A DNA stretch of 51,163 bases from Spirochaetales bacterium (GTDB lineage Bacteria > Spirochaetota > Spirochaetia > DSM-2461): the NCBI GenBank assembly GCA_016936555.1, contig JAFGXR010000035.1:1-51163 (forward strand). Reading direction: 5' to 3'. This document shows, in pieces, positions 29,940-51,163 of this stretch. The position numbers were made by a program, and so were the translations under genes. Position 1 is the stretch's first letter, and every line of letters starts with the position of its first letter. The notes beneath the pieces are model-generated. The model was not told where the DNA came from and made no database searches. It was given only the letters and a program-made list of their open reading frames with translations.

Positions 29940-30722
29940 TCATAGTTGGGACTCTAAAAGTATGAAATTAATGCTTGTATCATCCCATTTCGAGCCGTCA
30001 TATACATCTAATATTTCAATAATGATATCGGTTGTCTCTGGGACTTTAAAATATTGCAGATTGGGACTATCTTTTACATTGTATTCCAAGGAAAAACTAT
30101 TTTCGGAATTGGATACCTTAATTCTCTTCACCCGTGAATTATATTCATAAAGATAAGGCTTCTCGTATGATACAAATCCATTTGATATGTAAAATCCTGT
30201 TATCGTTAATTCATCAGCATAATGTGCTTCAATCTTTTCCCCTTTTCCGACCCCAGAAACTCCTTCGACCCAGGGTTTAAACAAGGTCATGTCGCCTAGA
30301 TTTCCAGAGGAGAAATCATATTTACTATCACTGTAGGATGATGATGTAGTAAATGATGTAGAACTTAAAAACAAATCATATATACTCCGTCCCCAGAACC
30401 CTCCTGAATCTGGTGAAGATTTGGGCATTTTATAGAGTAAAAGAAAATCATCGGAATATATTGCCAAGTATTTTTGAAACTCTCCGTCTTTCTCAATATA
30501 AAGAAAAGGAATTTTTGAATCTTCTTCATAAAGATACTTAAAAGATTCAACTCTCTTTGAACCTTTACTGATAAACTCATCAATAGTTAAAGTTCCATCC
30601 CTAAATATGTATGTTACATCTGGATTCGGGTAAAAAGTTCCATTAAACTCACCGACATTGCCCTGAGCAAAGGTATGAAAAAAGCAGAGTAATAAAGAAA
30701 CTCGTAAAATAGTCTTTTTCAT
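29940..30722 (-). CDS. Secreted protein with NADase-type glycan-binding domain, next to an RHS tip
   Basis: The 260-residue protein has a signal peptide (MKKTILRVSLLLCFFHTFAQ). The N-terminal half (about 25-145) is a beta-rich domain I do not recognise, with an acidic Ser/Tyr-rich stretch. The C-terminal half (about 150-258) matches the NADase-type glycan-binding domain known in spirochaetal proteins: LFKPWVEGVSGVGKGEKI, LTITGFYISNGF, YNSRVKRIKVSNS and YDGSKWDDTSIN. No catalytic NADase part is present. It starts 3 bases after the stop of the RHS gene and shares the low GC content of the RHS tip, so it could be the immunity partner of the tip, acting in the periplasm; this is inference. The GAGGAC site precedes the ATG. 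No terminator is visible after it. Confidence 0.78.
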   Translation of the reverse strand: MKKTILRVSLLLCFFHTFAQGNVGEFNGTFYPNPDVTYIFRDGTLTIDEFISKGSKRVESFKYLYEEDSKIPFLYIEKDGEFQKYLAIYSDDFLLLYKMPKSSPDSGGFWGRSIYDLFLSSTSFTTSSSYSDSKYDFSSGNLGDMTLFKPWVEGVSGVGKGEKIEAHYADELTITGFYISNGFVSYEKPYLYEYNSRVKRIKVSNSENSFSLEYNVKDSPNLQYFKVPETTDIIIEILDVYDGSKWDDTSINFILLESQL

Positions 30723-30725
30723 CAG

Positions 30726-33700
30726 CTAAAGTCCTCTTACTCCACCATTCCCATCAAGTTTCACTTCTGGAACCTCCGGGACAATTACATTCGCATTACC
30801 TCCGGTATCAAGCGCTTTTTGTGCATAGGGAATCATTTCCCTTATATCACTATTGTCTCCTCTACCGCAGCCCCAAGTTGTTGAATCTTCATTATTATCT
30901 CCGGTAATATTGCCCTGGTAATCTCCACCATGTAATAAGAAACCACCATCATTTATTACTTTATCAGGAACCCATTCTCCATCTCCATTTTTCTTATATG
31001 TAGTGACGTCTGTCGAAGCATCTGTTTTAATATAAGGACCGATAAATCCTTCTGGGCTCTCTCCAGTTGCTGTAATATTCCACTTCCCAGCTGGGAATTC
31101 TCCAGGGAAATATCGATAAGTCCTGAATTTTTCAGGAACATAACCTCTCTCTGCAGGAGTTTTTACATTATTAGTCATTTTATAGACCTCTCGAACTATA
31201 CCGTTTCCATTGATCCCGCCGCTTTGAGTTAGAGGGACATAAAGCATGGTTGCAGTTTCTTTTGCTGTGTCAAATGTTATTTCAATATCATCTAAACCTG
31301 TCGGGTCTATACGATTTAGAGGATTGTTACTTACATAAGCATACCAATTTAAGCCGTCCTGCACCGGATCCACATTGATGAATCTTCCTGTAGTCGCATC
31401 ATAAAACCTGGCATTGAAGTAATACAAATTCACATCCTCATCCAACTCTTTTCCTGCATAGGAATACTTCCCCGAATCTTCGGTTTCGTTATTCCCGCCA
31501 TCAAGCTTCCTCAACTGCTCCCCGAAAGCGCGGTAGGTGTAGTTTACCACGACCTCCCCTTCCCCGTCCGTCACAATTTTAGTCGAGTTCAAATGATCGA
31601 GATGATAGTAGTTCTTCTCCACTTCAACAGAATCATCAGCCTTAACGATCCTGGTCACCCTTCCGGCCACCAGATCTCCCGAAAGAACATACCGGTTGAT
31701 CCTCCCTTTCTCTTCACTTTGATCGTCATTCACTTCAATATCCATGGCCACGGCAATAGTCCCATGCCGGAGGTACAGTGTCAGCGATCCATCGGAGGAG
31801 GATTTGATCACCCGGTTGCCCGCGTTGTCAGAGCCGTACTCGGAGAACTCCGATCCCCTTGTCGTTTTAACCAGACGGTTGAACACATCATAATCAAAGG
31901 TCACCGTCTCGTCCCCCTCTTCTCCGTGAATGGTTCGGGATATAGTGTTTCCGTTGGCATCGTAGGTATACTCGGCAAAGAGGGTTCGGGTCGTCTCCCC
32001 CGCCCTTTTCACTTCTATCGTCTCCAGACGGTTGCGCGCGCCGTAGTTGTAGAAATACTCATCGCCGTTCTGAACCAGCTTCGTCCGGTTGCCGTTCCGG
32101 TCATAGATGAAGGCTTCGTTATCAAAAGAGAGCCTTCCGTCGGCCATAACCTCATCGAGATCGATCAGCGCCTGAAGATAATCCCCTCCGTTCACCCGTC
32201 CGTCGGGAGCCCCCTCTGGGTAGAGGTCCGCCTCTATTTCATAGATTTTGCCCTCAACGGGATCGCCGCCATCATAGGTCCCGAAATGCTCTTTCACAAG
32301 TAAACGGTTGTCGGTGATATCGGGGAGTCTGGTGCTCGCAGAGGAGATCCGGTGAAACCCGTCATAGCCGTAGCTGTTCTCGTTGATATTCGTAATGTTC
32401 CCCGCTCCGTCGATTGTGTAGTTCAAATCCTCGATGTATTCGTTCGAAGTCGAGGCCAGTCCGATCCGGATCCGGCTGATCCGCTTGCGGTTGTCAAAGT
32501 CCCATTTCTGAACCGTGCCGTTGGAATAGGACATATCGGTCACAACGCCGCTTTTATTGTAGTCCAGGTTGGTCACGAAGAGACTGACCGAAGTTGCTGA
32601 AGCGCCCTCGCCGATCCCCGTCAGTTGTCCCAGGTACTGGTCGTAGGAAAAAGAGTGGACCGATCCGTCGGGATAGGTCATGTCGCGGAGAAGTCCGCTC
32701 GCCGTGTAGCCGTAGGAAAAGGAGAAGGTCTGATCGGATACCGTTCCCCCATAGACAGAGGCTACCGAGTTCCGGTAGAGGATGTTCTTGAGCCGCCGGT
32801 TCAGGTCCGACAATCGTCCCGCTCCGTCGAAGGTGCACTGTTCGATCAGCTCCCTGTTCTCCACGCGGATCACATTGCCCCGTCTATCATAGAGCCGGTA
32901 CTCTATGTCATCGGCTGTGGTTTCTCCCACCTTGAAGTACTCGGTCTTCGTGTTTCGCCCCGCTTCGTCGTAGGTGAAGGCGATCAATTGTCCCTTCCGA
33001 TCAGTCTTGGAGGTTAACAATCCCCGGTCGTCGTAGACCATGAAGTCGCTGCCGTTGCCGTAGATCTGCCGGACCAGCAGGTCCCGCTCGTCAAAGCGGT
33101 AACCCGTGACAAGTCCCTCGGGATCGACTGACTCGGTCAGCCTGTTCAAGGCATCGTAGGTGAAGCCGTATCTTTGAGTTTCCGTCGTATCTGTATCGGA
33201 GTCACCGTAGGCGATTCTCATCGTCACATTGCCGTTCCAGTCCATCTTCTCATAGAGGACTGAGCCTTCGGGATCGGTGGTGGTTACCGAGTTCTCACCG
33301 TCGTTGTAGCTGATCCGCTTGATCTTGCTGCCGCCCGTCGTGTCGGGGTAGAACACCTTGATCGTCCGTCCCAGGTCGTCGTACCTGACCAGCCAGGTCT
33401 TGTCGTAGCGCTGAACCGATACGCCGTTGACCGAAATCGTGCTGGAATCAGTCCCGGCGTCGGGATCAGTCAGGGCAATCATATGGCCGTAGAGGTCGAA
33501 GACTATCGACTTAACAGCATAGACCGATCCCCCGGCTCCGTAGGTGATCTCTTCGGTGGTGTTCCCCACACCGTCCTGCTGCACAGCCGCGGCCAGGGTG
33601 CTCCAGCTGTGAGTACCGGAATCGTATTCAAAGTCGGTCAGGGTTTTCACATAAGCGGACCCGTAGTCGATCTCTTTGCGTACTCCCGGATTGTACCGGC

Positions 33701-49998: not shown

Positions 49999-50017
49999 GA
50001 TGGTATTTCTCCTGAGT

Positions 50018-51163
50018 CTATAAGCTGTTGCCGACGTTAATGCTGTAAGATCCGATACAGTTCCCGCTTATTCCGGCTACAGGCGTTATTCTGAAAAAGA
50101 GGATTGTATCTTCCCTCAAGTTATCGGGATCGGGAATCGGATAAAATTCCTCTTGTATGCTGCTGCCTATGCTGATTGTTTCCGATAACAAGCCGTCGTG
50201 ATAAAATTGAAGATTGATCTGGTCGAAGTCGATAGGTTTTTCTACGGTAACAGAAATCATGTCTCCTCTTTTACATTCTTCATATCTGTACCAGTCCGTA
50301 TCGGCTTCAATCAGTCCGTCCCCATCATTAAAGGAATAGAGGATGGGAGGATTCCCGCTATCGGGAACGTAGGATCCGCTGTTCAATGTCGAAAAATCGT
50401 TGTTCAGAGGTTCATATATATCAGTGGTATCGGAGCGCACTCCCAACACCATGGGACTGGCTGAACCGTACTCGACACGGCCCTTCATCCACCTTATCTG
50501 ATAGTAATAATGGGTATCGGCAAGAGCGGTATAATCAAAATATTCAATGTAAGCCGAGGTATTGGAAAACCTGTCAATTTCTACAGGGGCTGCAGATCTG
50601 CTGCCGCCTCTGTAGATGACATACTCATCGACATCTATGGTTTTATCCCAACTCAGTCTGATCCTGTCATTATATTCCAGACGGGACGCCTCGGGATTTT
50701 GTACATAATCGCCGGGATCGGCCGGGTCAACGGGATCAACTGGTTCCGTGGGATCAAAGGATTCGCTGCTGATACAGACTGAATAGGGGCCGAATGAGTT
50801 TTCATTGACAGATGAAAGGGGAGTTATGCTGAAATACAGGACCGCCGGGGTCTGATCGGAATCGGGATCGGGGATTGCATAGATATATTCATAGGGATTA
50901 TGTGATGAATTAATAATGAAGGGGGCTGAATAGTCCCCTTCATAAAAATACTGGAGCTCAATCTGATCAAAAACAGAGGGTTTGCTTATTTCGATTGTGA
51001 CTTCATCGCCTCTGCTTCCTGCATATTGATACCAGTCCCTGTCCCGCAGACATCCGCCTTCTCCGTCGCTGAATGAAAAGAGAAGCGGCAGGTTGTTATC
51101 GTCCTGGATAAAATTGCCTTCCGGCAGTGTCAGAAAATCATTGTTTTCAGGTTCTCCTGTATC
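50018..51163 (-). CDS. Secreted-type protein, C-terminal part only (PPC-like / FN3 / PPC-like)
   Basis: The reading frame is open from the window edge to a stop at 50018 (381 codons), so the gene continues to the right. An internal Met near 50488 is not a likely start because the protein similarity continues above it. It consists of a PPC-like domain (FSFSDGEGGCLRDRDWYQYA and IPDPDSDQTPAVLYFSITP), a Pro/Asp linker (DPTEPVDPVDPADPGD), an FN3 domain (RIRLSWDKTIDVDEYVIYRG), and a second PPC-like domain with the same landmarks (YSFNDGDGLIEADTDWYRY and IPDPDNLREDTILFFRITP). The two outer domains are a clear duplication. PPC domains assist secretion or substrate binding of surface enzymes and adhesins. 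The stop is 19 bases before the giant protein gene. Confidence 0.85.
   Translation of the reverse strand, partial: DTGEPENNDFLTLPEGNFIQDDNNLPLLFSFSDGEGGCLRDRDWYQYAGSRGDEVTIEISKPSVFDQIELQYFYEGDYSAPFIINSSHNPYEYIYAIPDPDSDQTPAVLYFSITPLSSVNENSFGPYSVCISSESFDPTEPVDPVDPADPGDYVQNPEASRLEYNDRIRLSWDKTIDVDEYVIYRGGSRSAAPVEIDRFSNTSAYIEYFDYTALADTHYYYQIRWMKGRVEYGSASPMVLGVRSDTTDIYEPLNNDFSTLNSGSYVPDSGNPPILYSFNDGDGLIEADTDWYRYEECKRGDMISVTVEKPIDFDQINLQFYHDGLLSETISIGSSIQEEFYPIPDPDNLREDTILFFRITPVAGISGNCIGSYSINVGNSL

Follow-up and report, generated by a model that had tools for sequence, protein, structure and literature searches.

A conserved giant secreted protein accompanies a predicted RHS polymorphic toxin in a spirochaete operon

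Introduction

What do four close-packed genes for secreted proteins, one of them encoding 4729 amino acids (aa), do together in a spirochaete? The question is raised by contig JAFGXR010000035.1 of a Spirochaetales bacterium (assembly GCA_016936555.1), of which all 51,163 nucleotides were analysed (the window; contig C77 of the 4.7-Mb, 134-contig genome G000). An earlier note on this DNA had proposed an operon of surface proteins that belongs to no named system. Our analysis suggests, with a probability of roughly 0.55, that the operon encodes a polymorphic toxin system of the RHS type that is exported by Sec and has a giant scaffold dedicated to it. The open reading frames (ORFs) confirmed the spacing reported earlier for the four minus-strand genes, which are separated by a 19-bp gap, an 8-bp overlap and a 3-bp gap:

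51163 (open) to 50018, minus strand: FN3/PPC-like lipoprotein, C-terminal part (381 aa visible; N-terminus on contig C18)
49998-35809, minus strand: secreted giant, 4729 aa (ORF; orthologues of 4746, 4779, 5611 and 5473 aa)
35816-30726, minus strand: RHS/YD-repeat protein, 1696 aa, predicted toxin cage and tip (ORF, Pfam/NCBIfam)
30722-29940, minus strand: secreted NADase_transloc-domain protein, 260 aa, predicted immunity protein (ORF, Pfam/NCBIfam)

Signal peptides and lipoboxes were judged by eye or by a simple pattern, without a predictor; the N-termini suggest Sec export of all operon products.

Results

The N-terminus of the RHS protein is signal-like, with a weak DUF6531 match behind it. 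The protein contains RHS repeats (4.3e-31) and an Rhs_assc_core, directly past which the identity to relatives collapses.

31293..31535, minus strand: Rhs_assc_core, end of the constant part, aa 1428-1508 (TIGR03696, 5.8e-21)
30729..31283, minus strand: toxin tip, L,D-transpeptidase (YkuD)-like with an H...TWGC motif, aa 1512-1696 (family alignment, profiles)

When compared to the orthologue in genome G002, the identity was 63-85% per 100 aa up to about aa 1500 and then dropped to 29 and 16%. The same was seen with a second copy in G000 (contig C57), where 64-80% identity up to about aa 1500 was followed by 24 and 16%. The downstream secreted gene also differed with each tip in the window, G002 and C57. 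Since the RHS body is shared while tip and next gene vary from copy to copy, the window protein is probably a polymorphic toxin, with a constant body, an exchanged tip and a downstream immunity gene.

The tip of G002 is a peptidase M23 (6e-21) and that of C57 is another H...GC tip; for the tips of G212 and G156 no assignment was obtained. In the family of the window tip, Pfam YkuD was matched by four of eight members (best 8.6e-6), and H and GC are invariant in the alignment, fitting the YkuD catalytic motif H...(S/T)xGC. The best matches of the family profile to the PDB, although weak, were YkuD enzymes. The tip is on these grounds assigned to an L,D-transpeptidase (YkuD)-like family, which supports the previous suggestion that it is aimed at the cell wall. 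The window tip alone had no match among solved structures, and no relative was found on viral contigs.

The fourth gene, 3 bp past the tip, encodes a 260-aa protein with a signal-like start and matches to NADase_transloc (2.6e-20) and NADase-type glycan-binding (3.3e-28); there was no match among solved structures. Behind other tips, this gene is replaced by unrelated secreted genes. On the other hand, a 490-aa NADase_transloc gene (4.4e-18) lies behind a member of the window tip family in G234, and a 295-aa NADase_transloc-type gene behind an L,D-transpeptidase-like tip in G012. Relatives of the 260-aa protein were present in 82 of the 356 genomes searched. The H...GC motif ends 9/18 of the genes lying at most 60 bp upstream of such relatives versus 2/136 background ORFs, a descriptive comparison without a test, as the motif was chosen after some cases had been viewed. 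Because of its position, its paired exchange with the tip and its recurrence behind like tips, the 260-aa protein is very probably a tip-specific immunity protein. It had been taken before for a constant glycan-binding partner, which is ruled out by the change of the last gene with the tip. This would suggest immunity to L,D-transpeptidase-like tips as a role for a family annotated only as NADase-type glycan-binding.

Some other RHS proteins also bear tips of the window family. Orphan tip cassettes that include a fragment of the RHS core are found elsewhere, for instance behind recombinase-like genes in G002 (by eye). At the end of an SpvB-type RHS gene in G002, a near-identical block of ParA-like, recombinase-like and RHS-tip genes is duplicated (L028, 2600-7639 and 12400-16537), and looks like a mobile tip-cassette element. 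In two further loci (L104, 5455-7420; L105, 5062-6895) the L,D-transpeptidase-like tip is carried by short proteins that have a double-glycine-like leader (LTEEELLTVNGG), and the next gene is lipoprotein-like; L104 also has a C39-peptidase-like ABC transporter alongside. The same toxin domain may thus be delivered by a second route.

Next to the exchanged parts, the giant is constant. It lies directly upstream of this RHS type in 8/8 loci from seven genomes. The order lipoprotein-giant-RHS, with FN3/PPC-like lipoprotein homologues at the same position, was found in G002 (giant of 4746 aa), at two loci of G212 (4779 and 5611 aa), in G156 (5473 aa) and in G142, where the reading frame of the giant is broken in the assembly. 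UBA5486 and GWB1_27_13 harbour the giant and then the RHS gene (the region 5' of the giant was outside the DNA compared). The arrangement is not due to chance, since the same gene order recurs in these seven other loci.

As the N-terminal 3000 aa of the giant, used as query in the wider family, gave matches within the genus only, the conserved C-terminus was used instead. Strong matches were obtained in five of 394 genomes of the class (G000, G002, G142, G156 and G212), and the RHS N-terminus had strong matches in the same five and in no other; further matches of either query were weak and short. Identical sets of five would arise by chance with a probability of about 1e-11 if the genomes were independent, which they are not, as two belong to one genus and three to one family. 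Profile searches of genome contigs found relatives with a six-sequence RHS alignment and gave no match with a two-sequence giant alignment. The linkage of RHS and cohesin-bearing giant was thus found in other spirochaetes, and not the unlinked occurrence that had been set beforehand as the refuting observation. The genome UBA5486, with the giant-RHS operon at L162, is filed in GenBank under Firmicutes; it may be a misfiled spirochaete, or the operon may stem from a transfer between phyla.

The cohesin, LamG and propeller domains named in the earlier note were all recovered in the giant by Pfam/NCBIfam:

49597..49920, minus strand: cohesin domain at the mature N-terminus, aa 27-134 (PF00963, 4.2e-5)
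42988..43395, minus strand: LamG/ConA-like domain, aa 2202-2337 (PF13385, Laminin_G_3, 1.5e-9)
38917..39384, minus strand: TolB-type beta-propeller blades, aa 3539-3694 (PF07676, PD40; TIGR02800, 4.7e-15; fold search)
35812..38001, minus strand: tandem PKD/Ig-like units, about aa 4000-4729 (PF18911, PKD_4; model, fold search)

A structure model of medium confidence (pLDDT, the predicted local distance difference test, 64) and a fold search indicate an all-beta tandem character for the C-terminal region. The last 1250 aa are 75-86% identical to G002 compared to 43-64% in the preceding part, and in three other giants the values are 41-65% compared to 27-52%. Conservation of the giant is therefore highest at the end adjoining the RHS gene. 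At the other end, cohesin PF00963 was matched by three orthologues (3.8e-8, 1.7e-5 and 1.6e-9) and by a fourth at 0.056. All five giants with their start at hand thus have a cohesin as mature N-terminus, four of them above the Pfam cut-off. The best PDB matches of this cohesin were scaffoldin cohesins. We predict that the giant acts as an extracellular scaffold or stalk.

A possible counterpart of the cohesin was found within the YD repeats of the RHS protein:

32082..32297, minus strand: RHS stretch specific to the giant-linked class with a dockerin-like calcium loop, aa 1174-1245 (loop aa 1197-1213; alignment, motif)

The motif A-D-(L/I)...D-G-x-(I/V)-(N/D)-G-x-D is present in this one stretch in 7/7 RHS partners examined. 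It was absent from all nine SpvB-type spirochaete RHS proteins aligned over the same stretch, and no other carrier was found among 754 ORFs compared. Dockerin_1 was matched above the cut-off by the UBA5486 copy (1.6e-6), weakly by G212_C107 (0.0064) and at 0.21 by G156; one of five segments tested passed the Pfam cut-off. Because the loop lies in the RHS protein and the cohesin on the product of the neighbouring gene, docking of the cage to the fibre is the simplest reading, and we predict that the cohesin of the giant docks the dockerin-like loop.

The right end of the window cuts the first gene. An exact 87-bp overlap, found nowhere else in the genome, joins it to contig C18. The GenBank titles of the isolates Zod_ and ZodW_Metabat, relatives with the giant-RHS operon, read k87, and the 87 bp are therefore probably the word length of the assembler. 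After joining, the product of the first gene is 603 aa long and begins with a lipobox-like sequence; its proposed PPC domain was not confirmed by Pfam, which gave only a weak GH85_C match. Contig C18 adds four same-strand genes upstream, encoding a collar-domain protein (phage-tail-collar PF07484, 3.3e-16), an FN3-type lipoprotein, a barrel-like protein and a TPR protein. The four genes of the supposed operon thus stand, but not its extent.

A gene of the collar-domain type also precedes the set in G002, G212 C220 and G142. Phage-tail-collar-domain proteins were seen ahead of the giant operon at L101 (791-1546) and L026 (2842-3570), and collar-like proteins (by eye) ahead of an RHS N-terminus without a giant at L166 (697-2352). 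Directly downstream of the operon, at 29547-29732 of the window, lie three copies of a 62-bp C/T-rich repeat, and repeat-like sequence resembling it seems to be present on C57, ahead of the second RHS copy (L025, about 8668-9655); the region is possibly a recombination site. PADLOC gave no match for the four window proteins, and a reading as anti-phage defence was dropped.

The same class commonly carries another set, in which genes for a TPR protein, a barrel-like protein, an FN3 lipoprotein and a 220-aa lipoprotein are followed by that of an SpvB-TcdB-RHS protein of about 3.2-3.5 thousand aa (L101, 1817-4516; L141-L160). The barrel-like gene was found in 29/356 genomes; at 20/20 loci the FN3 lipoprotein gene is next to it, and 17 of these reach the SpvB-TcdB-RHS gene. 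Neither the barrel-like protein nor the 220-aa lipoprotein belongs to a clear Pfam family. In G000, the TPR, barrel-like and FN3-lipoprotein genes precede the giant operon and adjoin an ATPase-like gene, while in G002 the same ATPase-like gene adjoins the other RHS class and the trio is present only at that other RHS locus. Since trio and ATPase-like gene are found at the giant operon in G000 and at the SpvB-TcdB-RHS locus in G002, the two toxin types share a locus type.

Discussion

In the mechanism that we propose, the 1696-aa RHS protein would form a cage enclosing its C-terminal tip, the L,D-transpeptidase-like tip would attack the peptidoglycan of neighbouring bacteria, and the 260-aa secreted cognate immunity protein would shield the producer's own periplasm. 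The 4729-aa giant would be an extended extracellular fibre, the N-terminal cohesin of which may bind the dockerin-like loop and keep the toxin on the cell surface or further out, and the upstream lipoprotein(s) might anchor the complex or aid export. Folding of the cage and release of the tip are drawn by analogy from solved relatives and from published work (PMC13018210). What the earlier note had called an undescribed surface system would thus remain a conserved secreted gene set, but not a four-partner binding or assembly system of unknown kind. More tentatively, we consider a new form of toxin display, in which a scaffoldin-like fibre plugs the RHS cage via a cohesin-dockerin joint. Such a display would be Sec-dependent, independent of a type VI secretion system (T6SS) and contact-acting, with tip and immunity gene as exchangeable cassettes and fibre and joint as the constant part.

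Several observations weigh against the toxin system with a dedicated scaffold. The loop segments of the window and of G212_C220 had no Pfam match, the loop of the window and of three other copies contains a 4-residue insert, and a profile of the seven loops matched mainly dockerins in the PDB, but weakly (E 0.2-3). The loop is moreover a single repeat, while classical type I dockerins, like those of cellulosome-type pairs, have two, and cohesin-like domains are also known where no dockerin accompanies them. Within the class sample, the genomes in which giant and RHS type occur together are few and related. No giant is present ahead of the second RHS copy on C57, where 1 kb is left to the contig end, so the giant may be dispensable or act in trans. 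Finally, the window tip alone had no Pfam match, and its single-sequence fold (pLDDT 34) gave no usable model.

The C57 copy also fits the possibility, which we regard as doubtful though serious, that an ordinary RHS toxin-immunity pair shares an operon with an adhesin, in which case the giant would attach to substrate or to neighbouring cells and would not hold the toxin. The case for a toxin and its immunity gene is strong even with the giant set aside, and cohesin-like and LamG domains are common in adhesins. Against this speak the restriction of strong giant and RHS matches to an identical set of five among 394 genomes, the adjacency of the two genes in 8/8 loci, the high conservation of the giant at the end adjoining the RHS gene, and the RHS-specific dockerin-like loop. 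It is unlikely, too, that the TPR, barrel-like and FN3-lipoprotein genes of C18 are a dedicated RHS toxin export machine with the giant as one of its substrates. The position of the trio ahead of the giant operon in G000 and the constant pairing of barrel-like and FN3 lipoprotein genes, mostly continuing to an SpvB-TcdB-RHS gene, would agree with such a machine, but in G002 the trio is elsewhere. Since no barrel-like gene was detected in G212 and UBA5486, which have the giant operon, the trio as obligatory export machine is unsupported.

The cohesin, LamG and dockerin-like parts could also belong to a cellulosome-like enzyme scaffold, with an RHS tip that breaks down polymers or remodels the wall of the producer itself. 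This is very improbable given that there is only one cohesin, that the tips are swappable and paired with secreted genes, that orphan tip cassettes exist and that the operon has no glycoside hydrolase. Least probable is a Tc/ABC-like toxin complex with the giant as TcA and the RHS protein as TcB-TcC: a large protein and an RHS protein do share one operon, but by Pfam the window RHS protein has no SpvB or TcdB domain and the giant no TcA domain, and SpvB and TcdB domains sit in a separate RHS class of the same genus. Membership among the Tc toxins was rejected on this basis. A T6SS Rhs effector was likewise rejected, the N-terminus being signal-like and without a PAAR match (the genome was not searched for a T6SS).

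Comparison with known systems

In contact-dependent growth inhibition (CDI) two-partner systems (CdiB/CdiA/CdiI), as in the window system, a giant secreted stick, a toxin tip and an immunity gene are found. Here, however, stick and toxin are separate polypeptides, and neither filamentous haemagglutinin repeats nor a TpsB transporter was matched in the window proteins. The SpvB-TcdB-RHS toxins (TcdB/TcaC type) of the same spirochaetes resemble the window system in the RHS core, the differing tips, the FN3 lipoprotein and, in G012, the NADase_transloc-type downstream gene. They differ in being a single chain with SpvB and TcdB, in having the 220-aa lipoprotein, and in lacking giant and dockerin-like loop.

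The RHS polymorphic toxins (Zhang et al. 2012, PMC3482391) resemble the window system in the signal peptide, the YD/RHS body with its core, the exchangeable toxin at the C-terminus and the downstream gene predicted here to confer immunity, as well as in an L,D-peptidase-like tip (Tox-LD-peptidase) and orphan tip cassettes. On sequence, YD/RHS repeats with core, an exchanged tip and, by position, a downstream gene are all present here. The L,D-peptidase tip as such is therefore a known toxin class. The Tox-LD-peptidase entry lists Imm16/Imm57 and no spirochaetes (PMC3482391), whereas the predicted immunity protein of the window is a NADase_transloc protein, and the constant partner of 4.7-5.6 thousand aa with a cohesin domain is an addition. 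Bacterial teneurin-like proteins (Raoelijaona et al. 2026, PMC13018210) are, as predicted for the window system, Sec-exported, surface-displayed RHS/YD shells with a polymorphic tip, a downstream immunity gene and no obvious delivery machine; according to that study, their delivery mechanism is still to be elucidated. They carry display domains on their own chain (lipoprotein- or S-layer-type anchors), whereas the window system, in which Pfam found no teneurin domain on the RHS protein, seems to use a separate giant.

Cellulosomes (Acetivibrio cellulolyticus, PMC3413522) are similar in the cohesin on the scaffold and the dockerin-like loop on the cargo. The window system differs in having one cohesin, one dockerin repeat and a predicted toxin cage instead of a glycoside hydrolase as cargo. 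Rhs modules are listed among the cohesin and dockerin proteins of Acetivibrio, so that there is a precedent for this combination, though not one interpreted as a toxin (PMC3413522).

The family of Sec-exported RHS polymorphic toxins with an immunity gene is thus already known (PMC3482391, PMC13018210). Unusual are the constant giant partner and the cohesin/dockerin-like pair, which the earlier note had seen only in part. In the open-access literature no description of a giant-RHS operon was found (subscription papers were outside the scope). How RHS toxins are held and delivered without a type VI or Tc apparatus is an open question, for which a conserved dedicated giant with a predicted cohesin-dockerin joint is a concrete candidate. 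If true, the cohesin-dockerin plug would move from polymer degradation into warfare.

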